This document shows, piece after piece, positions 4,377 through 38,713 of a stretch of 64,000 bases of DNA. The DNA lies in NCBI GenBank assembly GCA_016841945.1, contig JAENYC010000006.1, forward strand, positions 1 through 64,000. The letters are read 5' to 3'. A program made the translations under genes and the position numbers. This DNA comes from Haloplasma contractile (lineage in GTDB: Bacteria; Bacillota_I; Bacilli_A; Haloplasmatales; Haloplasmataceae). The notes below the pieces were generated by a model. The model saw only the letters and a list, made by a program, of their open reading frames with translations, did not search any database and was not told the DNA's origin. The first letter of the stretch is position 1, and each line of letters starts with the position of its first letter.

Positions 4377-4446
4377 TAAATATCTTAAATATTAGCTTTT
4401 TTTATGATAAAATTGATTTATATGGAAAGGTAAGGAGGTTTTATTT

Positions 4447-6459
4447 ATGGCAAGTCAATTGAATCTAAAAGGGGTTAATAAATATTATGGAAAATTACAT
4501 GCACTAAAAAATATTAACCTAGTTGTTGAAGAAGGAGAGTTTCTTGGTATATTAGGTGAATCTGGAAGTGGTAAATCCACTTTATTAAATGTGATTAGTG
4601 GATTAGATACATTGGATTCTGGTGAAATTACCATTAATGGAATTACAACACGTGATTTTTCAAAAAAAGAATGGGCTATTTATCGAAACCATTATATTGG
4701 ATTTGTTTTTCAAGAATATAATTTAGTGGATCATTTAACGGTTGTTGAAAATGTTGAGTTACCACTACTTTTACAGGGAACAGATCCTTCAGTTGCGCGT
4801 GAAAGAGCACTTCAAAAATGTAAGATACTAGGACTGTCAAAGCATGTTCATAAATTACCTAAAAAGATTTCAGGCGGTCAACAGCAAAGAGCTGCAATTG
4901 CACGAGCACTTGTAACAGAGCCTAAAGTCATTCTAGCGGATGAACCAACAGGTGCTTTAGATAGTGAAAATGCTAGAATCATTTTAGATATTTTAAAAGT
5001 ATTATCAAAAGATCATATAGTGATACTCGTTACCCATGATGAAGAATTCGCGGAAGCATATTCAACTAGATTGATTCGACTAGAAGATGGTGTAATTGTG
5101 TCTGATTCTAATACCAAAAAAATAGGTTATGAGAGTACCTCTCAATTGGATTTAAAACGTCCGAATATGCGATTGAAGGTATTATGGAAGTTTGCCTATA
5201 ATAATTTAAAGAAACGATTGGTTAGAACATTCTTTACATCCCTTACGATGTCATTGGGATTAATCGCTATCTTTTTGATCATTTTCTTGGTCAATGGAAT
5301 TAGAACTGAGGTAACGGATGTGATAAAGGAAATAATTCCAGAAGATCAGTACTATATTACATCAGAAATGAATCATGCCAATATAACGGATGAAGAATAT
5401 GATTTTGTTGTTGCTCAATCGATAGTAAGTGAAGCATATTTTGATACAACGTTAATTCCTCTAACAAATCAGTTAATTGAATATTATAAAGATGGTGAAG
5501 AATATTACCAAGTGGCAAATTATTCCATTCGTTCCATCCCATTAAATGAACGAAATTTTATCTATCGCAATAATTTAATAGGAAATTATCCGCAAGATGA
5601 AAATGAAGTCATTATTACTTCAGGACTTGCTTCAGAATTAGTGGGTTCTTCAATTAATGAAAATGAATTAGACAGAGCCTTAGATTATATTAAACAAAAT
5701 GAAAAATTGACGATAGTAAGGCTATCAAGCGAAACATTATTAAATGAAGATTTCGATGTGGTTGGAATCATCTATAATAAACAACCAGTTTCCTATGCAC
5801 TACATACGAAGGTAGATGAACTGAAACAACAAATTACAGAAGAGGATATACAGTGGTATTATGGAGCCCCCTTAGAAGATAGGTCTAATCTTACGGTATA
5901 TTTAAGTACAGATAATGAAGATAGAATAGAAGATTTTGAAGATTTGTTATTTGAAAATGGCTTGATTTTAAATAATCCTGTCAAAATTATATTTAGTACG
6001 ATTGATGATTTCTTTGATACCATTTTATATATATTAGTTGGTACAGCGTCTATTTCATTATTAGTTTCAGGGATCTTAGTCGGATTAATGATTTATATCT
6101 CTGTATTAGAAAGAATAAAAGAAATTGGAATTTTAACTTCAATTGGGGCAAGAAGCTCAAATATAAGAAATTTATTTATCTTTGAATCAGGATTCTTAGG
6201 ATTTCTAAGTTCTTTTATCGCACTCTTTATCTCATTATTCTTTACATGGATGATTAATGCGATATTTAATCGAACAATTGGTAACTTATTTAGAGTATTA
6301 AATATGAATATTTTCGATCAATTTAAATTATTACATGTTGATATCATTGCAATCCTCGTTGTTTTTGGTTTGAGTATTATTTATTCTATTCTTTGTGGAC
6401 TCATTCCAGCATATAAAGCATCTAGGTTGAACGCAATAGAAGCATTGAGAAAAGAATAG
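4447..6459 (+). CDS. MacB/BceAB-like ABC protein, fused ATPase and permease (first of pair)
   Basis: A 670-residue fusion. Residues 1-220 are an ABC ATPase with Walker A GESGSGKST (about 37-45), signature SGGQQQR and Walker B VILADEPT. A single membrane segment near residue 265 leads to an extracellular region of about 240 residues. Three C-terminal membrane segments follow in an FtsX-like permease (LERIKEIGILTSIGAR). Proteins of this architecture act by mechanotransmission or export outside the membrane and often confer peptide-antibiotic resistance or lipoprotein release. The gene is 10 bp ahead of a paralogue of the same design, so the two probably form a heterodimer. The substrate is unknown. 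Confidence 0.88.
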   Translation: MASQLNLKGVNKYYGKLHALKNINLVVEEGEFLGILGESGSGKSTLLNVISGLDTLDSGEITINGITTRDFSKKEWAIYRNHYIGFVFQEYNLVDHLTVVENVELPLLLQGTDPSVARERALQKCKILGLSKHVHKLPKKISGGQQQRAAIARALVTEPKVILADEPTGALDSENARIILDILKVLSKDHIVILVTHDEEFAEAYSTRLIRLEDGVIVSDSNTKKIGYESTSQLDLKRPNMRLKVLWKFAYNNLKKRLVRTFFTSLTMSLGLIAIFLIIFLVNGIRTEVTDVIKEIIPEDQYYITSEMNHANITDEEYDFVVAQSIVSEAYFDTTLIPLTNQLIEYYKDGEEYYQVANYSIRSIPLNERNFIYRNNLIGNYPQDENEVIITSGLASELVGSSINENELDRALDYIKQNEKLTIVRLSSETLLNEDFDVVGIIYNKQPVSYALHTKVDELKQQITEEDIQWYYGAPLEDRSNLTVYLSTDNEDRIEDFEDLLFENGLILNNPVKIIFSTIDDFFDTILYILVGTASISLLVSGILVGLMIYISVLERIKEIGILTSIGARSSNIRNLFIFESGFLGFLSSFIALFISLFFTWMINAIFNRTIGNLFRVLNMNIFDQFKLLHVDIIAILVVFGLSIIYSILCGLIPAYKASRLNAIEALRKE

Positions 6460-9374: not shown

Positions 9375-10220
9375 TTATTTTGTAATATATAGAATTCCAA
9401 TGGTACCTTTACCACAATGACTTGATATGACACAACCAGCTGTTGTTTCATATAAATTCTTAATATCTAAATTTGTCGATAATTCTTCTTTAAGGTATTT
9501 TGCAGCTTCAAAATTAAGTGAATGGGTAACCATAACAAACTCAGAATCTAATTTATCTTTATCAGCGTTAATTTTTTCTAAAAGAAGTTGATAAGCTTTT
9601 TTTCTTCCACGTGGTTTAGCACCAACTAACATACCACCATCAACCACATGAATAATGGGTTTTATTTTTAACATGGTGCCCACAAAATTAGCGATTCCTG
9701 AACATCTGCCACCTTTATATAAGTATTCCATCGTATCTATTACAAAAGCAGTTTCTACCTTAGGAACAATTTTTCTAACTTTTTCTGCAATTTCTTTGGC
9801 ACTCAAACCTTCTTCTTTTAATCTACAAGCTTTTAAAACAATTAAACCGACCCCTGATGATAGATTCATTGAATCAATAATATGTATTCTATCTTTTGGA
9901 AATTCACTTGCAGCAAGATTTGCACTTTGTATCGTTGATGAAAGTTTAGATGATATACTGACATGAACGATATCATAGCCTTCTTCTATATACGGTTCAA
10001 AAAAATCAATGAATGTTTTAGATGAGGGAGCTGCAGTTTTTGGAAGTATCCCTTTTTCTGTGACTAAATTATATAGTTTGTCAGTTGTAATGTTTACTCT
10101 ATCTTCATATGTTTTATCATTAAAACTAACATATAAAGGAATGACTCTTATATCGTAGTCGTGTAATATTTGGTCAGATAAATCACAAGTGCTATCAGTT
10201 GTAATAATAATTTTATTCAT
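9375..10220 (-). CDS. DegV-family fatty-acid-binding protein
   Basis: A 281-residue DegV protein with the family start IIITTDSTCDLSDQI. It also has the conserved middle segment ISSKLSSTIQSANLAA and the GGRCSGIANFVGTMLKIKPII block. DegV (FakB-type) proteins bind a fatty acid and present it to the kinase FakA for phosphorylation before phospholipid synthesis. No fakA gene is in the window. A second DegV gene occurs at 12561-13436, which would allow different acyl-chain preferences. Start ATG with a GGGAGG site. Confidence 0.9.
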   Translation of the reverse strand: MNKIIITTDSTCDLSDQILHDYDIRVIPLYVSFNDKTYEDRVNITTDKLYNLVTEKGILPKTAAPSSKTFIDFFEPYIEEGYDIVHVSISSKLSSTIQSANLAASEFPKDRIHIIDSMNLSSGVGLIVLKACRLKEEGLSAKEIAEKVRKIVPKVETAFVIDTMEYLYKGGRCSGIANFVGTMLKIKPIIHVVDGGMLVGAKPRGRKKAYQLLLEKINADKDKLDSEFVMVTHSLNFEAAKYLKEELSTNLDIKNLYETTAGCVISSHCGKGTIGILYITK

Positions 10221-10385
10221 AATAAATCCCTCCCATTTTTATAACTAGTTTTATTTTACTGAAAAATTAAACATATGTAAAGAAATTATAGTAAAAACTC
10301 CTATCATTTTTATGTATAAACATATAGCAAAGACCATATATTCATTGTATAATAGTGATAACAATCAAAAAAAGGGGAGAAATAA

Positions 10386-10970
10386 ATGGATGATATAAAG
10401 AAACTACCAACCTTAATCAGTGAACGTATTATTTTAAGACCGATTAATATAATAGACTGTGCTGATATGTATGATTATGCAAAGAGAGAAAATGTTGGTC
10501 CAATGGCAGGATGGGAACCTCATCAATCCATCGAGGAAACAAAGAATATAATCAAAACGATGCAGGATGAGATGTTAACAGAGACAAATATTGGTGTCTT
10601 TTCAATTGTTTATAAAAAAAGTATGAAAATGATTGGTACAGTTGGACTTCATCGTTTAAATAAACAGAGAAAAACAGCAGAATTAGGTTATATCTTAAAT
10701 CCTGATTATTGGGGAAAAGGCTTAATGGTTGAAGCAGTTACTAAAATAATTCCATGGTTTTTTGATGAACTTGGTTTATATCGTTTAGAATGTGGACATT
10801 TTGATATTAATCAACAATCTAAACGTGTGATTGAAAAATGTGGTTTCACATTAGAAGGAACATTTCGAAAGAAAATTGTGTTAAAGGATGAAAGTCGTTG
10901 TGATTTACATCATTATTCTATATTAAAAGAAGAATATGAAAATAATCAATTACCTTGGCAAAAAAGATAA
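10386..10970 (+). CDS. RimJ/RimL-like GNAT N-acetyltransferase
   Basis: A 194-residue acetyltransferase. The N-terminal LISERIILRPINIIDCADMYDY is characteristic of the RimJ/RimL group. The acetyl-CoA-binding motif is AELGYILNPDYWGKGLMVEAV (about residues 97-117), and VIEKCGFTLEGTFRKK near the end is also typical. Members acetylate ribosomal or other protein N-termini or small molecules. The substrate here is not predictable. It is preceded by a GGGGAGA ribosome site and followed immediately by a strong terminator, so it is probably monocistronic. Confidence 0.88.
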   Translation: MDDIKKLPTLISERIILRPINIIDCADMYDYAKRENVGPMAGWEPHQSIEETKNIIKTMQDEMLTETNIGVFSIVYKKSMKMIGTVGLHRLNKQRKTAELGYILNPDYWGKGLMVEAVTKIIPWFFDELGLYRLECGHFDINQQSKRVIEKCGFTLEGTFRKKIVLKDESRCDLHHYSILKEEYENNQLPWQKR

Positions 10971-30770: not shown

Positions 30771-31130
30771 ATGAAGTTTGAAATTAAATTAAAAGAAATT
30801 CTTAAAAGTGAAAAAACTAACTTTATCGCGTTAACATTTATATTGATTTTTTTACTTCCTTTCCTAATTTGGTATATTTTTATGGAATATCATCCTCAAA
30901 AAATATTGAGTTTATTAGCGATTATTCCACTATATTTATTATTAGGATGTATCGTATATAAAAAGAGAAAGATTATAAAGGAAATAAAATGGTCAATTCG
31001 ATATTATGATGTTTATCCTACAAAAGTACAAGATATTCTAAAACAACGAAAGATTTCTTTAAATTATTGTCGTGGAAAAAATAGCTTGTATTCTTTATAC
31101 GATGAAGCATTAAAAATGAATAGTATATAA
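30771..31130 (+). CDS. Small two-helix membrane protein, unknown
   Basis: A 119-residue protein. A short amphipathic N-terminus precedes two hydrophobic helices (ALTFILIFLLPFLIWYIFM and ILSLLAIIPLYLLLGCIVY). A basic cytoplasmic tail of about 55 residues follows, with KVQDILKQRKISLNYCRGKN. It has its own promoter upstream and its own terminator downstream, so it is a monocistronic gene between the activase and hydrogenase operons. No family recognised; no link to hydrogenase can be claimed beyond proximity. Confidence 0.6.
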   Translation: MKFEIKLKEILKSEKTNFIALTFILIFLLPFLIWYIFMEYHPQKILSLLAIIPLYLLLGCIVYKKRKIIKEIKWSIRYYDVYPTKVQDILKQRKISLNYCRGKNSLYSLYDEALKMNSI

Positions 31131-31238: not shown

Positions 31239-32111
31239 ATGCCAATGAATAAGTGTTTTATTTATGAACAAAAACCCATCGTTTGTCGTAGAATAATTGA
31301 ATACTATAAAGATGTTACTTCAAAGGAGAGACAGAATAAGATTAATTTAATATGGCTTGAAGCTTGTGGTTGTAGTGGAAATATTATTTCATTGTTAAAT
31401 GCCAATGATCCGGATGTTGTTTATTTTTTAGATGAAATGGTTAACATGACCTATAATAATAGTTTAATGGCTAATGAGGGAGAGATAGCGATTGAAAGAT
31501 TTCTAGAAACTTTAAATACTGAATTTATTTTAGTAGTTGAAGGTGCAGTATCTTTAAAAAGTAATGGTTTATACAATGTTGTGGCGCGATATCAGGAAGA
31601 ACTCATCACAGGTATGAAGGCAATCAAAATGGCTTCTGAAAAAGCAAAATATATTATTAGTGTTGGGAGTTGTGCCTCCTATGGTGGTCCATCTAGTGCT
31701 AGACCTAATTTAGCTGAATGTGTGAGCGTCTATGATTTTGTAGAAAAAGAAGTGATTAGAGTACCAGGTTGTCCAAGTCATCCACAATGGGTGATTGGTA
31801 CCATTGCGCATTTATTATCTTTTGGAAAGCCAACTTTAGATGAAGAGAATAGACCCATCATTTTTTACGGTGTAACGATTCATGATCTTTGTCCTAGAAG
31901 GTCATATTTTAATAAAAAAATTTTCGCAGAAACTTTGGGTGATAAGGAATGTATGATCAAATTAGGGTGCAAGGGTCCTTTAACCAAAACGGATTGTCCG
32001 ATTAGAAGATGGAATAGTAGTGATAATTGGCCTATTGGTGATAATACACCTTGTATAGGATGCGCTGCAAATGGTTTTCCGGATGCGATGGAACCATTTG
32101 TGAAGTTTTAG
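31239..32111 (+). CDS. [NiFe] hydrogenase small subunit
   Basis: A 290-residue electron-transfer subunit with ligands for three clusters. The proximal cluster uses EACGCSGN, VGSCASYGG and VPGCPSHPQW. The distal one uses IHDLCPRRSYF, ECMIKLGCKGP. The medial one uses the Cys of KTDCPIRRWN and TPCIGCAANGFP, with the NWP typical of a [3Fe-4S] site. There is no twin-arginine signal peptide and no C-terminal membrane helix, so the enzyme is cytoplasmic, as in group 2-like or other soluble uptake or sensory hydrogenases. Start may be ATG 31239 or ATG 31245; a GGAG site at 31231 serves either. First gene of a complete maturation operon. Confidence 0.92.
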   Translation: MPMNKCFIYEQKPIVCRRIIEYYKDVTSKERQNKINLIWLEACGCSGNIISLLNANDPDVVYFLDEMVNMTYNNSLMANEGEIAIERFLETLNTEFILVVEGAVSLKSNGLYNVVARYQEELITGMKAIKMASEKAKYIISVGSCASYGGPSSARPNLAECVSVYDFVEKEVIRVPGCPSHPQWVIGTIAHLLSFGKPTLDEENRPIIFYGVTIHDLCPRRSYFNKKIFAETLGDKECMIKLGCKGPLTKTDCPIRRWNSSDNWPIGDNTPCIGCAANGFPDAMEPFVKF

Positions 32112-32120
32112 GAGGGTTTT

Positions 32121-33521
32121 ATGAAAAAGATTGTGATTAATCCATTGACGAGAATTAGTGGATTTTTAGAAATACAAGTATTAATTGAAAATAATATTGT
32201 TAATAATGCTATATGTAGTGGGATGCTCTTTCGTGGTTTTGAAAAAATGCTTGAAGGAAGAAGTCCCCTTGATGCAATTTATTTCACAGAAAGGATATGT
32301 GGAATCTGTTCAACAGCGCATTCTGTTGCTGCCGCTAAAGCGTTAGAAGATACATTGGGGATAATACCGAAAGACAATGATAAGATGATTCGTGATTTTA
32401 TTCATGGATGTGAATTTATTCAAAATCATCTTAGACATTTTTATTTATATACTTTTCCTGATTTTGTCAAAGGTCCTAAATTAAATCCAGTGTATAATAA
32501 TGAAATTGCAGATTATCGTTTACCTAAAGAATTAAATGAAAAACTTGCTAATCATTATTTAAAAGCGGTTGAATACAGCCGATTAGCGCATAAAATGTTA
32601 GCGATATTAGCGGGAAAGGCGCCACATAATCATGGGATTTTTGTCGGTGGTGTAACAATTAATATGAATAGTTCTATTTTTATAGAAATTAAGTCAATAT
32701 TAACACAAATCAAAAGGTTTGTTGATGAAATCATGCTTCAAGATATAGACGTAATATCAAAGTATTATGATGACTACTTCTTAAATGGTAAGGGATATGG
32801 TAATTTCATTAGTTTTGGAGTATTTAATGAATATAAAGATGATAATATTCATTACGTTAATCCTAGTGTTTATATCAACAATAGGATAGAAAAATTAAAT
32901 CCAAGTCTTATTACTGAAAATATTGAACATGCCTGGTATATCAATCAACAAGATACTTACAAGCCATTAGAAGAGGGTGGTTTACCTGATGTATATAAAA
33001 AGGATGCCTATTCCTTTGTTAAGGCACCGAGATATAAAGGATTTCCTATGGAAACAGGACCCCTTGCAAGAATGTATTTAAGTGGGATATACACTAAAGG
33101 AATATCGACGATGGATAGAATGATTGCCCGTGTCTTAGAAACGAAAAAGATATGTGAAAGCATGTTAAATATACTGTCTCTTATTCAATTAGAAGATGCG
33201 AATCAAGAAAGGTATCAAATACCAGATGAAGCAGTTGGAATTGGTTTAGTTGGGACAACAAGGGGTGCTTTAGGCCATTATTTACAAATAAAAAATCAAG
33301 TGATTGAAAAGTATACCATCATCACACCAACAGCGTGGAATTTATCAACCATGGATTCAAAAGGGATTAAAGGGGTTATTGAGTATGCGTTAATGGGAAC
33401 AGAATTAAATGATCATAAGATTGCTAAAATTGGAAGAATTGTTCGTTCTTACGACCCTTGTGTTTCTTGTGCGACCCATGTTGTTTCAAACAAAGAAGAT
33501 GTAATGATTCGAGTGGTTTAG
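32121..33521 (+). CDS. [NiFe] hydrogenase large (catalytic) subunit
   Basis: A 466-residue catalytic subunit that binds the NiFe(CN)2CO centre. The N-terminal L1 motif is RICGICSTAH (about residue 60) and the C-terminal L2 motif is DPCVSCATH, giving all four Cys ligands. Thirteen residues follow the His and should be removed by the endopeptidase encoded next. The length is short compared with many periplasmic enzymes but normal for cytoplasmic types. It starts 9 bp after the small subunit with an AGGAGG site. Physiological direction (H2 uptake, evolution or sensing) is not readable from the sequence. Confidence 0.94.
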   Translation: MKKIVINPLTRISGFLEIQVLIENNIVNNAICSGMLFRGFEKMLEGRSPLDAIYFTERICGICSTAHSVAAAKALEDTLGIIPKDNDKMIRDFIHGCEFIQNHLRHFYLYTFPDFVKGPKLNPVYNNEIADYRLPKELNEKLANHYLKAVEYSRLAHKMLAILAGKAPHNHGIFVGGVTINMNSSIFIEIKSILTQIKRFVDEIMLQDIDVISKYYDDYFLNGKGYGNFISFGVFNEYKDDNIHYVNPSVYINNRIEKLNPSLITENIEHAWYINQQDTYKPLEEGGLPDVYKKDAYSFVKAPRYKGFPMETGPLARMYLSGIYTKGISTMDRMIARVLETKKICESMLNILSLIQLEDANQERYQIPDEAVGIGLVGTTRGALGHYLQIKNQVIEKYTIITPTAWNLSTMDSKGIKGVIEYALMGTELNDHKIAKIGRIVRSYDPCVSCATHVVSNKEDVMIRVV

Positions 33522-33974
33522 TTGATTAAAATTATCGCAATTGGTAATAAACTCATGTGTGATGATGGGATTGGTTTAGTTGTATTACAAGAAATAAAAA
33601 AAAGATTACCAAATCAAATAGAAACAATCATTGGAGAAACAGATTATATGTATTGTCTAGATAGAATCAAATCCAATGATATCCTTATTGTTATAGATAG
33701 TTCTAATTTAGGAATAGAACCTGGAAGTCTTTCTTTTTATACACTTGATGAAATAGTTAAAAAACAAAGTTTTTCTTCTCAGCATCAAGTGAGTTTACTC
33801 GATTTATTTAAAATTAATCAATTCAAAAACAAAGTTTATGTGATCTTGATTGAAGTCAGTGAAATAAAGTATCACAATGGATTATCTAAAGTGTTAAGTG
33901 AAAAATTTAGTTCGATTTGTGAAGGGGTGTTTCATATGGTTAAACAGATTTTAAAGGAGAATGATTATGCATGA
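33522..33974 (+). CDS. Hydrogenase maturation endopeptidase
   Basis: A 150-residue protease of the HyaD/HycI family, which removes the C-terminal tail of the large subunit after nickel insertion. IIAIGNKLMCDDGIGLVVLQEI carries the family GN-x-L-x-x-D-D-G-x-G motif with the nickel-sensing Asp. Other expected acidic and His residues are present (VIDSSNLG, SQHQVSLLDL). TTG start directly after the large-subunit stop codon, so translation is likely coupled. It is probably specific for the large subunit encoded just upstream. Confidence 0.9.
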   Translation: MIKIIAIGNKLMCDDGIGLVVLQEIKKRLPNQIETIIGETDYMYCLDRIKSNDILIVIDSSNLGIEPGSLSFYTLDEIVKKQSFSSQHQVSLLDLFKINQFKNKVYVILIEVSEIKYHNGLSKVLSEKFSSICEGVFHMVKQILKENDYA

Positions 33975-34236
33975 TACCTTTTTATTTAAAAAAATAGCGG
34001 ATCATTTATTTGAAGTATGTAAGGAAAATAAAATAATTAAAATCACTCATTTAGAAGTATCAGTTCATAAAAATAGTCATGTGAATAAAAAAAGTTTATT
34101 GAAACATTTATTAGATGAGATTCCAGAACTTATTGATTATGATACCGTGATTATTGTTCATAATGGACAAACTGAGGAATTAACAGCGATTATTAATACG
34201 GTTGAAGGTGTTCATGATGAAACGTTATGTGATTAA
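33967..34236 (+). CDS. Truncated HypA-like nickel chaperone lacking the zinc domain
   Basis: About 89 residues starting MHDTFLFKKIADHLFEVC. The position in the operon, the N-terminal Met-His-acidic nickel site and the VCKENKIIKITHLEVSVHK strand all resemble HypA. Normal HypA has a Glu at position 3 and a four-Cys zinc loop in the second half. Here position 3 is Asp and no CxxC pair exists; the only later Cys is the penultimate residue. ATG 33967 has the better spacing (GGAG 7 nt upstream) and gives MHD. It could be a reduced nickel-delivery protein or a different chaperone occupying the hypA slot. Confidence 0.6.
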   Translation: MHDTFLFKKIADHLFEVCKENKIIKITHLEVSVHKNSHVNKKSLLKHLLDEIPELIDYDTVIIVHNGQTEELTAIINTVEGVHDETLCD

Positions 34237-36451
34237 GATTTATGGAATTGTTCAAGGTGTAGGCTTTAGACCCTATGTTTATCAGACAGCTTTAAGGTAT
34301 CATATCAATGGATTTGTTAAAAATTGTGGCAGTTATGTAATCATTGATTGTGAAGGGTTAAAAAAAGATATAAAATCATTTTTAATAGATGTGGTAAAAA
34401 AGCCACCTGTATTAGCTCAAATTAGAAAGATAGATGTTTATTCTCTTGATACTTATTCATATGAAACCTTTAAAATACTTGAAAGTAGTACAAATCTTGA
34501 ACATTTTTACTATGTATCACCAGATATTGCAACATGTAATAAGTGTTTATTAGATATAGAGAATATGGATTCAAGATATTACCATTATCCATTTACTAAC
34601 TGTACTGATTGTGGACCACGATATTCAATTATAAAAGATTTACCTTATGATAGAATGACAACGACGATGAATGATTTTATGATGTGTGACGAATGTAAAA
34701 AAGAATACATCAATCCTTTAGATAGACGTTTTCACGCACAACCAATTGCGTGTAAAGATTGTGGTCCCTCTCTCATGTTATATAATAAAGAAGGAAAAGA
34801 GATTAAAGTAGATAATATCATACAGTATACCGCTCATTTAATCAATCAAGGTCATATCATGGCGATTAAAGGATTGGGTGGGTTTCATCTATGTTGTGAT
34901 GCAAAAAATGATGAGGCAGTCATAAACTTAAGAAAAAGAAAACAAAGACCAAATAAACCATTTGCGATTATGACAAAGGATATTAAGCATGTAAATGAAA
35001 TAGCAGTTATCAATGATTTTGAAGAGGAAATATTACGAGGGAAGGAAAAACCGATTTTACTATTAAAAAAGAAAGAAAATAAAATATTATCAAAATATAT
35101 TGCACCCCATTTAGATACAATTGGTGTATTTTTACCTTATACGCCATTACATGCATTATTATTGAAGCAGCTTGATTATATCGTTCTAACAAGTGGTAAT
35201 AATAAATCCTCTCCAATAACCTATAAAAATGAAAAGGTAATAGAAGATTTAAAAGAGATAGCGGATTATTTCTTAATACATGATAGGAAAATAGAAAGAC
35301 CACTTGAGGATAGTGTTTCAAAAGTCATATTAAATAAAAAACAGAATATCAGATTAGGAAGAGGGGTTATTCCCCTAACGATAGCCATAAATCACGATAA
35401 GCAAATAGTAGCACTTGGCATGGATGAAAAAAGCGGGTATGCCTTTTCACAAAACGGTTTGATCACATTAAGTCAGTATTTAGGGGATTTAAATCAGATG
35501 GCATGTTATGAAGGATTTAAAAATTCAATGCAAAACACCATTGAGTTTTATAATTTAAATATTGACTATATTGTCACAGATAAAAATCACCATCTTATAT
35601 CTTCACAGTATGGAAGTACTTTAGGTAAAAAAAGATTAGAAGTTTATCATCACCATGCCCATATGGCAAGTTGTATGGGGGAATTTGGTTTATATGATGA
35701 TGTTATTGGTGTTATTTTTGATGGCACTGGTTTAGGAGATGATGATTCTGTTTGGGGTGGTGAGTTTTTTGTAGGTAATCGAAAAACATTTACAAGAGTT
35801 GGTCACTTAGAACCCGTTTTGATACAAGGAAGGGAAAAGGCGATTAAAGACATCAGTAGAACTGCCTATAGTTATTTAAAACATTTTGATTTAGAATATA
35901 ATTTAAGAATAGAGTGTAAAAAAGAAAAAATATTAGAAAAAGCCATCAATCATAACATCAATTGTTTTAAGACAACGAGTATGGGAAGATTATTTGATGG
36001 TGTGAGCTACCTAATCAATCTAATAGATGAAGTAACCTATGATGGAGAGGCAGCGATACGTTTAGAAAGTATCGTTGATAACCATATAGATAAAAGATAT
36101 TCTTATTCCTTAAATGTTAATCATCATCAATTTATCTTAGATTTTAAAGAAGTAATAGAGGGTATAGTCGATGATCTAAAAAATGAAATTAGTCCTTCTA
36201 TTATTTCATCAAAATTTCACCTTACGATTATTGAAATGGTCGTAGATGGTGTGAAATTAATCAGTGATGATACGGGAATTAATCAAGTGGTATTAAGTGG
36301 TGGTGTATTTCAAAATCAGTTTCTTTTAGAAAAATGTTTTAACAGGTTAGTTGAAATAGGTTTTAAAGTTTATTTTAATCAAAAAATACCCATTAATGAT
36401 AATGGCATCGCATTTGGTCAATTAATTATTGCGAGTCAATTGATAGGGTGA
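34217..36451 (+). CDS. hypF: Carbamoyltransferase HypF (hydrogenase cyanide-ligand synthesis)
   Basis: About 744 residues. It makes the thiocarbamate on HypE that becomes the CN ligands of the active site. The domains are in order. Acylphosphatase comes first (IYGIVQGVGFRPYVYQTA, residues 5-90). Two zinc-finger motifs follow (CNKCLLDIE with CTDCGPRY, and CDECKKEY with CKDCGPSL). Then come a YrdC-like domain (IKGLGGFHLCCDA, LRKRKQRPNKPFAIM) and a Kae1-like domain (HHHAHMASCMGEFG, FDGTGLGDD, LSGGVFQN). ATG 34217 follows AAGGTG and overlaps the end of the HypA-like gene by 20 bp. Confidence 0.94.
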   Translation: MKRYVIKIYGIVQGVGFRPYVYQTALRYHINGFVKNCGSYVIIDCEGLKKDIKSFLIDVVKKPPVLAQIRKIDVYSLDTYSYETFKILESSTNLEHFYYVSPDIATCNKCLLDIENMDSRYYHYPFTNCTDCGPRYSIIKDLPYDRMTTTMNDFMMCDECKKEYINPLDRRFHAQPIACKDCGPSLMLYNKEGKEIKVDNIIQYTAHLINQGHIMAIKGLGGFHLCCDAKNDEAVINLRKRKQRPNKPFAIMTKDIKHVNEIAVINDFEEEILRGKEKPILLLKKKENKILSKYIAPHLDTIGVFLPYTPLHALLLKQLDYIVLTSGNNKSSPITYKNEKVIEDLKEIADYFLIHDRKIERPLEDSVSKVILNKKQNIRLGRGVIPLTIAINHDKQIVALGMDEKSGYAFSQNGLITLSQYLGDLNQMACYEGFKNSMQNTIEFYNLNIDYIVTDKNHHLISSQYGSTLGKKRLEVYHHHAHMASCMGEFGLYDDVIGVIFDGTGLGDDDSVWGGEFFVGNRKTFTRVGHLEPVLIQGREKAIKDISRTAYSYLKHFDLEYNLRIECKKEKILEKAINHNINCFKTTSMGRLFDGVSYLINLIDEVTYDGEAAIRLESIVDNHIDKRYSYSLNVNHHQFILDFKEVIEGIVDDLKNEISPSIISSKFHLTIIEMVVDGVKLISDDTGINQVVLSGGVFQNQFLLEKCFNRLVEIGFKVYFNQKIPINDNGIAFGQLIIASQLIG

Positions 36452-36455
36452 TTTT

Positions 36456-36683
36456 ATGTGTTTAGCGATTGTAGGAAAAATATTATCGATTAATAATGAT
36501 GATGCGATGGTCATTATTATGGGGATAAAAACCACTGTAAATATAATTTTAATTGAAGATTTACACATTGGTGATGAGGTCTTAATTCATGCAGGTTTTG
36601 CGATAGAAAAGATAAGTGAGGAAAAAGCTGATTTTATTAAACATCAGTTAAAAGCATTGATAATGGATGATAAAGATGGATGA
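36456..36683 (+). CDS. hypC: Hydrogenase assembly chaperone HypC
   Basis: A 75-residue chaperone that carries the Fe(CN)2CO unit with HypD and hands it to the large subunit. The N-terminus MCLAIVGKI contains the essential Cys2. IGDEVLIHAGFAIEKI is the second conserved block. Size is typical. It is 4 bp after hypF and overlaps the start of hypD by 8 bp. Confidence 0.92.
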   Translation: MCLAIVGKILSINNDDAMVIIMGIKTTVNIILIEDLHIGDEVLIHAGFAIEKISEEKADFIKHQLKALIMDDKDG

Positions 36684-37725
36684 AAAAAGATTAATAAATG
36701 AAATAAATCAACAGATAAAGAATAAAGTCAACCTAATGGAAGTATGTGGAACACATACCCATGAGATAAAACGTCTTGGTTTAGAATCTGTTTTATCAAA
36801 TAATGTTAATCTTATCTCGGGACCTGGGTGTCCGGTTTGTGTATCAAGTTGTGGTATGATAGACCAGGCAATTGAATGTCTTAAAGACAAGAAAACCATT
36901 GTGACCTTTGGTGACATGGTAAAGGTAAAGGGAACAACGAGTAGTTTAAAAGAGATGAAAATAAAAGGTTATAAAGTTATTGTCATCTATTCACCCCTTG
37001 ATTTATTTAATATTATTAGAAATAATATAGATGAAGAAATCATTTTCCTAGGAGTGGGCTTTGAAACAACAGCACCTGTTATCGCATCGGTTATTAAACA
37101 AATGAAAAAATCAAATCAAAAAAATGTTTCTTTTTTACTTGATATTAAAAGAATGAAACCCATATTAATATATATCTTAAGTAAGAATCATAAAATAAAT
37201 GGAATCGTAGCACCAGGACATGTGGCAACCATTACTGGAAGTGAATACTTCCGTTTTATCACAGAAGATTATCATATTTCTTGTGCAATATGTGGGTTTA
37301 CATCGTTAGATATTTTATCCGGGATTTATTATTTAAGTAAACATAAAGGTAAATTACAATTTATCAATTTATATAGTCGTGCCGTTAGGCCAAATGGTAA
37401 TCCTTTGGCAAAAAATATAATAAATGAAGTGTTTGAAGAAAGTGATGCATATTGGCGAGGCATAGGATCTATCAAATATTCAGGTTATCGATTAAATTCT
37501 GAATATAAAGATTATGATGCCATCAATAAATATCAGTTAAACATTGTGCACAACGAAATAGATAATGATTGTTGTTGTGATAAAATTATGTTAGGTTTGA
37601 AAAAACCTACTGAATGTAAGTATTTTCGCATAATATGTCATCCTAATAATCCCCTTGGACCATGCATGGTATCAAGCGAAGGGTGTTGTCTAGCTTATTA
37701 TAAATACGGGAGGAAATATGGATAA
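36676..37725 (+). CDS. hypD: Hydrogenase iron-centre assembly protein HypD
   Basis: About 349 residues, scaffold for building the Fe(CN)2CO group. Conserved motifs are MEVCGTHTHEI, GPGCPVCVSS, LGVGFETTAPV and the C-terminal Cys-rich cluster site (CKYFRIICHP, GPCMVSSEGCC). All Cys expected for the [4Fe-4S] and the active thiol pair appear present. ATG 36676, inside the end of hypC, gives MDEKRLINEINQQ; the upstream ATG at 36667 is less favoured. Confidence 0.94.
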   Translation: MDEKRLINEINQQIKNKVNLMEVCGTHTHEIKRLGLESVLSNNVNLISGPGCPVCVSSCGMIDQAIECLKDKKTIVTFGDMVKVKGTTSSLKEMKIKGYKVIVIYSPLDLFNIIRNNIDEEIIFLGVGFETTAPVIASVIKQMKKSNQKNVSFLLDIKRMKPILIYILSKNHKINGIVAPGHVATITGSEYFRFITEDYHISCAICGFTSLDILSGIYYLSKHKGKLQFINLYSRAVRPNGNPLAKNIINEVFEESDAYWRGIGSIKYSGYRLNSEYKDYDAINKYQLNIVHNEIDNDCCCDKIMLGLKKPTECKYFRIICHPNNPLGPCMVSSEGCCLAYYKYGRKYG

Positions 37726-38713
37726 GATTACATTAGTACATGGAGAAGGCGGAAGTGTTTCTGAAGAATTAATTCAAAACCACATTAAGAAACAGTTTAA
37801 TAATGTTTATTTAAAACAAAAGCTAGATTCAGCACTTATAGATGTCTCAAAAAAAATTGCTTTTACGACCGATTCATATGTTGTCAAACCTTTGTTTTTT
37901 AGTGGTGGTGATATAGGAAGATTGGCAGTTAGTGGGACCGTGAATGACTTAATGACTGTTTTTAGTACTCCATTATTCTTAAGTTGTAGTTTTATTATAG
38001 AAGAAGGTTTTGAAATGAAAAGTTTTAATCGTATTTTAAAATCGATGAAAGAAACTTGTTTAGAAGCAAATGTAGAGATTGTGACAGGAGATACAAAAGT
38101 TGTGCCAAAAGGTGATGCTGATGGGTTATATATAAATACCAGTGGAATTGGAATGGTTGATAAAAATCATGTCAAACCATTAGAAGAAGGAGATACTATT
38201 ATAGTATCAGGAAGTCTTGCCTTACATGGTACGGTAATATTAGTTGATAGATATCAATTAAAGATGGATATGAGTATTACAAGTGATTGTAAGCCCCTAA
38301 ATTATTTATTAGAGGTCATTAATAAATATAAAGATGGCATTAATATGATGCGAGACCCAACAAGGGGTGGATTAGGGACCTTATTAAATGAAATATCTAC
38401 ACAAAATAAAGTGACGATTGAAATAAATGAAGAAACAATACCTTTTCATGATGAAGTGAAAGCAGTCAATGAATTATTGGGGATTGATCCTTTATATGTC
38501 AGTAGTGAAGGTCGAATGGTATTTGTGGTAAAAAGTGAAATCGCAAATGAGATGGTAAATGATTTAAAGAAACTAGAGGATGGAGAAAATGCATCAATAA
38601 TTGGAAGAATAAAAAATAAGAATCGTGACTCAATAGTATATATGAATACCAAAATAGGGGGCAAAAGAATAGTGGGTGCTTTAGATGATTTAATTCTTCC
38701 TAGAATTTGTTAA
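37718..38713 (+). CDS. hypE: Hydrogenase maturation protein HypE
   Basis: A 331-residue PurM-like enzyme that dehydrates its C-terminal thiocarboxamide to thiocyanate. It begins with the usual LVHGEGGSVSEELI, has DSYVVKPLFFSGGDIGRLAVSGTVNDL for ATP binding, and ends exactly in LPRIC with the essential terminal Cys. It overlaps hypD by 8 bp and is the last gene before a terminator. hypB is missing from the operon and from the rest of the window. Confidence 0.95.
   Translation: MDKITLVHGEGGSVSEELIQNHIKKQFNNVYLKQKLDSALIDVSKKIAFTTDSYVVKPLFFSGGDIGRLAVSGTVNDLMTVFSTPLFLSCSFIIEEGFEMKSFNRILKSMKETCLEANVEIVTGDTKVVPKGDADGLYINTSGIGMVDKNHVKPLEEGDTIIVSGSLALHGTVILVDRYQLKMDMSITSDCKPLNYLLEVINKYKDGINMMRDPTRGGLGTLLNEISTQNKVTIEINEETIPFHDEVKAVNELLGIDPLYVSSEGRMVFVVKSEIANEMVNDLKKLEDGENASIIGRIKNKNRDSIVYMNTKIGGKRIVGALDDLILPRIC

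Follow-up and report, generated by a model that had tools for sequence, protein, structure and literature searches.

The described enzymes closest to the hydrogenase encoded in the window (the whole 64,000-nucleotide stretch of DNA analysed here, 28.7% GC) are those of 1cc1 and 4kl8, periplasmic [NiFeSe] and [NiFe] hydrogenases of sulfate reducers, belonging to group 1; they are the best solved relatives of both subunits, the small subunit matching 1cc1_S best (E 5e-55) and the large subunit 4kl8_L (E 2e-88). A second point of comparison is HofKG (5aa5) of Cupriavidus necator pHG1, a group 1h enzyme, whose operon has both HypA and HypB. Excerpts of three papers (PMC11212049, PMC3287977, PMC12134894) treat the gate glutamate and the HypA-HypB pair as something that [NiFe] hydrogenases have in general. 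The gate glutamate is presented there as an outer relay between a nickel-bound cysteine and solvent on the proton route (PMC11212049); HypA is said to bind nickel via His2 and Glu3, and maturation to have depended on its interacting with HypB in the systems tested (both PMC3287977). A natural branch of enzymes without the gate glutamate, one member of which also lacks most of the HypA-HypB pair, makes both rules testable.

That member is encoded at 31239-38713 of the window, where the ORF table shows eight genes, all on the plus strand and tightly packed with overlaps; their family assignments agree between Pfam and NCBIfam. In order, they encode the small subunit of a [NiFe] hydrogenase (290 aa, 31239-32111; TIGR00391 214.9 bits against a cut-off of 179.5; PF01058, PF14720), its large subunit (466 aa, 32121-33521; PF00374 329 bits), a large-subunit maturation protease with a TTG start (33522-33974; TIGR00072 87.5 bits against a cut-off of 47.45; PF01750 43.3 bits), a 91-aa HypA-like protein (33961-34236), HypF, again with a TTG start (34202-36451; TIGR00143 737.7 bits), HypC (36456-36683; TIGR00074 63.8 bits), HypD (36667-37725; TIGR00075 360.8 bits), in which the motif CGTHTHE is intact by alignment, and HypE (37718-38713; TIGR02124 394.5 bits), which ends in PRIC. 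The preliminary description of this DNA had already reported the compact operon, and its gene order, coordinates and overlaps hold up; its gene list was right for the structural genes, the protease, HypF, HypC, HypD and HypE, but missed the HypA-like gene. It was also right that the small subunit has neither a Tat signal (no RR motif with a hydrophobic stretch at the N-terminus) nor a C-terminal anchor, and that 31239-38713 holds no gene for a redox subunit. The source genome (G000; 3.43 Mb in 73 contigs, 98.96% complete) has a [NiFe] large subunit at this single place, matched as three pieces of one gene. GC at third codon positions is 20-24% in the five operon genes tested, slightly above the 18-20% of the three neighbours tested.

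Most likely the operon encodes a hydrogenase of the cytoplasm whose nickel loading is reduced and which would exchange electrons with an unlinked carrier; we infer the cytoplasmic location, and its putative role, in our view, is to take up H2 or to dispose of it by way of a soluble carrier. To the explanation as a whole -- a group-1-like cytoplasmic [NiFe] hydrogenase whose clade would have a cytochrome-b5 partner, with an unlinked carrier in this genome, half a HypA and an old operon -- we give a probability of about 0.65. In the proposed scheme, HypF, HypC, HypD and HypE, whose genes are intact, would build the Fe(CN)2CO group, nickel would be inserted with the HypA-like protein acting as the nickel-binding half, without the GTPase HypB, and the distal cluster would exchange electrons with the unlinked carrier, the b5 gene being missing from G000.

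The alignment to 1cc1_S sets ACGCSGN of the window against GQGCTGC of the structure, with Cys45 at the first proximal cysteine, Asn48 at the second, and Cys43 as an extra one. A 60-row multiple alignment -- the window, reference plasmid and E. coli sequences, two Desulfotruncus species and other genomes, with duplicates and short rows removed -- agrees in placing Asn48 at the second proximal cysteine. The altered motif, C43-G-C45-S-G-N48 (31365-31382, plus strand), reads CSGN and so departs from the CxxC of exported group 1 enzymes; the medial and distal cluster ligands are intact. The earlier statement had the ligands of all three clusters preserved in the small subunit, which is wrong for the proximal one. 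Asp, Asn or Glu occupies the second proximal place in 43 of the 60 rows and Cys in 17, a count that is not a frequency in nature, the rows having been largely fetched by a profile containing CDGD sequences; Cys43 is present in two rows (the window and L034). Natural changes of Cys to Asp and to Asn at this position are listed in the excerpted survey PMC4070099, where engineered C81D/N hydrogenase variants are given as active, and an excerpt of PMC7174314 describes a proximal cluster with a specific Asp for group 1h; the Cys-to-Asn change is not new as such. In the window enzyme the proximal cluster would be held by three cysteines and Asn48, or else by Cys43 as a fourth cysteine. Two further small subunits, at L128:1195-2160 and L130:4241-5194, align with Ser at the first proximal cysteine and Asn at the second; downstream of the former lie HypA, HypB-, HypC- and HypD-like genes.

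The large subunit has all four nickel-ligand cysteines (C60, C63, C447 and C450). Where 1cc1_L reads RVEGH it reads RISGF, which puts Ser13 (32157-32159, plus strand) at the place of the gate glutamate, also in the alignment to 4kl8_L. Compared with the two sulfate-reducer enzymes, the window enzyme thus has the same nickel, medial and distal ligands, and differs in its want of a Tat signal, in the Asn at the second proximal cysteine, in the Ser at the gate, and in having Cys, not Sec, in its last motif. HofKG resembles it in the non-Cys second proximal ligand (CDGD in HofK) and in lacking the gate glutamate (Val in HofG), but HofK has Asp where the window has Asn, its small subunit scores 98.9 bits against 190 for 1cc1_S, and HofG is placed, though only tentatively given the great length of its own branch (2.29), outside the window's branch of the tree.

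In the 57-row tree set, the gate glutamate is missing from all 36 rows of the window's branch (support 92/91, moderate) and kept in 17 of the 21 rows outside it; the four exceptions are HofG (Val), L098, L122 and L123, of which the last three also lack nickel ligands. The glutamate is kept, despite a non-Cys residue at the proximal place, in the Sulfobacillus plasmid enzyme and in L071 (the large subunit that goes with small subunit L053), which shows that one change can occur without the other; the window enzyme shares both with relatives, and therefore they are not local damage. Turnover would, judging by the sequence, proceed without the standard gate glutamate, whose natural loss we found nowhere discussed in the literature searched. 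The loci of the three exceptions other than HofG have a different character: L098 (small subunit 9493-10557), L123:1193-5299 and L122 (small subunit 4397-5458) encode Tat-bearing small subunits with all cysteines, followed by a large-subunit homologue in which the first motif has lost its nickel-ligand cysteines and which stops short of the last motif; in L123, genes for a cytochrome-b-like protein, HypA and HypB come next. Enzymes of this type may resemble hydrogenases but have no NiFe site.

Real relatives of the window enzyme were found neither in 395 genomes of its class nor in 392 of a phylum sample; each search returned two matches, the window's own and one in G051, which was rejected as a second hydrogenase genome, its match lying in a frame read as RecF from the translation. 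A pattern scan of 84,980 GTDB species, which requires exact 8-residue matches and so misses distant kin, gave two loci, both from Desulfotruncus (L013 and L014), at 41-42% identity. These belong to the same wider branch, have neither a gate glutamate nor a Tat pattern in the N-terminal 60 residues, and carry the proximal motif CDGD; they differ from the window in having a C-terminal extension, an adjacent cytochrome b561 gene, and HypB in their genomes. Of 348 genomes from the Desulfotruncus phylum searched with a profile, 107 had a small subunit (E up to 1e-20). Hydrogenase genes were also seen near spore-germination (gerA-type) genes, at L013:2311-5216 and L072:11709-15464 (by Pfam) and at L014:5930-7552 (by eye), where any tie with sporulation or dormancy would be speculative.

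Within the 57-row tree, the window large subunit lies in a seven-row clade with support 100/100, together with L036 (the same gene in L054, G534), L072 (G714), L073 (G539), L131 (G739), L127 (G821) and L129 (G578). The clade's enzymes come from Gram-positive bacteria, form part of a little-studied branch and have neither Tat signal nor anchor; identity to the window is 54-57% for the large subunit and, for the small subunit, 65% in G534 and 54-56% in L072 and L073. Directly upstream of the small-subunit start, or overlapping it, each of the six other members has a cytochrome-b5-domain gene; three of these genes were assigned by Pfam (E 5e-8 to 4e-10) and the rest by a profile built from the first three (E 7e-41 to 2e-26). 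Two histidines, His132 and His149 in the L054 protein, are common to the b5 domains and would suit a bis-His heme, and such an adjacent gene would provide a simple, single-heme electron partner. L126, which has a CxGN motif and stands outside the clade, shows no b5 match in the 1.2 kb upstream. By gene position, the native partner of the clade is probably a b5 heme protein that is absent in the window's genome. A limited literature search gave no description of a b5 partner for a hydrogenase, the "cytochrome b5" of one paper being just b559/b554.

Because neither the b5 profile nor PF00173 (E up to 1) finds a cytochrome-b5 domain anywhere in G000, an unlinked electron partner is the best reading for this genome, although, with 73 contigs, a b5 or HypB gene could lie in an assembly gap. 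To that extent the preliminary description, which had proposed an unlinked partner, stands for G000; it does not carry over to the six clade relatives, and an adjacent redox partner in close relatives, which it had named as speaking against its account, is what their b5-domain genes would encode. Its other suggestion, that the enzyme is an H2 sensor (a regulatory hydrogenase), would suit an operon without a redox subunit and a soluble heterodimer, and the loss of the gate glutamate might slow turnover; nonetheless we consider it very improbable, since no kinase, PAS or response-regulator gene was found beside the operon, the flanking genes also occur in sister genomes without the structural genes, the b5-domain gene of the relatives fits electron transfer, and HoxC, the large subunit of a known sensor, keeps its gate glutamate. 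One flanking gene, at 30771-31130, encodes a predicted membrane protein of 119 aa and adjoins a BadF-type gene. Clear homologues (E 4e-13 or better) are found in five of the seven other family genomes, all five without a full small subunit by our search, and it was rejected as a membrane partner or anchor.

The claim that HypB is lacking proved right for the whole genome: nothing in G000 exceeds the TIGR00073 cut-off, the one candidate (C5:359041), which was rejected, being a partial match of 21 bits in a 340-aa frame taken, on hand reading, for an FtsY/SRP GTPase. There is also a MinD-type HypB, a kind that the TIGR00073 model would miss. HypB over cut-off is found in 18 of 20 genomes, the exceptions being G000 and G529. 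Nor did the HypA model find a full HypA in G000. The 91-aa gene between the protease and HypF genes gives a product that matches PF01155 over residues 1-45 (E 0.026; 15 bits, below the cut-off of 28.9) and that has no CxxC, and so lacks the two-CxxC zinc domain. With translation from 33967, the protein begins with MH (His2), has Asp replacing Glu3, and would correspond, tentatively, to the N-terminal half of HypA. A HypA comparison set trimmed to the MHE start (30 of 31 sequences kept) was used for hhalign, which placed the protein on HypA over residues 1-44 with a score of 25.6 together with two homologues and 27.4 alone; the best of 200 column shuffles reached 21.6. A model made by AlphaFold without an alignment was of low confidence (pLDDT 54.5), and a PDB search with it put HypA in ranks 1-3 (probability 0.80-0.91, E 0.15-0.32), all fold E-values being above 0.1. 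No description of a HypA without its zinc domain was found in a limited literature search.

This protein may not be HypA at all, in which case nickel would enter without a chaperone or through another protein. The Pfam match is below cut-off, the hhalign probability is 33-51%, the homologues in G005 and G007, genomes without the structural genes, have lost His2 and match no HypA model, and high nickel can bypass HypAB according to an excerpt of PMC12134894. We consider this somewhat unlikely, given that the match is in register from residue 1 with MH kept, that none of the 200 shuffles does as well, that the top three PDB places are all HypA, and that the gene sits inside a hyp operon, overlapping both of its neighbours. 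If the protein is taken as a half-length HypA, G534 offers a comparison: HypB and a complete HypA are both retained there, encoded in a hyp cluster of their own, and the reduction of nickel loading therefore belongs to the window's lineage.

Judged by the small-subunit search, the window's genome is the one among eight of the order that has the whole operon, with G001, from the same family, as a possible second. There a b5 protein (PF00173 E 2.8e-8; profile E 1.1e-32) lies at the edge of a 4.2-kb contig, its end overlapped by a 31-residue open frame that begins MNDNCPI and runs off the contig; this frame is similar to the start of the small subunit, which is MNKCPI in G534 and MPMNKCFI in the window, and the rest of the subunit was not found in the G001 assembly. 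In G005, of the same genus, the interval between the 119-aa gene and glmS holds a HypA-like ORF (82 aa, 54%), a 99-aa HypF fragment with an altered acylphosphatase loop and a full-length HypD-like ORF of 354 aa (54%; L113:8368-9432), and no other operon genes; the HypD-like ORF has CGKHTNV for CGTHTHE, with its cysteines conserved, and, kept as it is without adjoining structural genes, possibly serves a new role. In G007 a HypA-like ORF (85 aa, 35%) follows the 119-aa gene and is itself followed by a 568-aa ORF and then glmS. In G003 and G004 the 119-aa gene adjoins an ORF of about 120 residues that lacks the DDG motif, likely a protease-like piece by its place and by weak BLAST matches (E 2e-5 and 1e-6, against a database of two sequences); in Pfam the protein from G003 matches no protease, and the next gene in that genome is not glmS.

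The simplest story is probably that the operon is an old possession of the family which its siblings have lost piecemeal; a recent horizontal gain is not the simplest, the G005 and G007 pieces lying between the same left-hand neighbour and glmS. In these pieces one can follow, as is seldom possible, the stepwise loss of a hydrogenase operon. They also show how easily the locus decays, and the window copy could itself be on its way out. It could even be past that point, its frames open but the enzyme no longer made or active: the b5 partner, HypB and the HypA zinc domain are missing, sisters keep only pieces at the same site, and one genome of eight has the operon whole. Such decay seems unlikely to us, as all eight frames are open with catalytic motifs intact, where eight neutral frames at 28.7% GC would be expected to collect stops, and as the proximal Asn and the lost Glu, being common to relatives, are not signs of decay.

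A hydrogenase that probably works is the reading kept here. A more far-reaching version of it, in which the enzyme would work with a zinc-free, half-size HypA and with neither HypB nor the gate glutamate, the soluble members of the branch would normally be wired to b5, and the HypD-, HypA-like and protease-like leftovers of the sisters would still be coding, maybe with new jobs, is possible but tentative, at rather less than even odds. NG86 estimates of dN/dS are about 0.22 for the protease-like ORF (G003 against G004) and about 0.24 for HypD (the window against G005), compared with 0.09-0.11 for the neighbours BadF and glmS, values that are indicative only, with dS at 0.9-2.7 near saturation; the leftover ORFs look to be evolving faster than their neighbours and still look coding. 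In G005, where a small subunit of the window type was not found, a large glutamate-synthase/ferredoxin-like fusion has HypB on one side and a full HypA on the other (L096:9972-13731).
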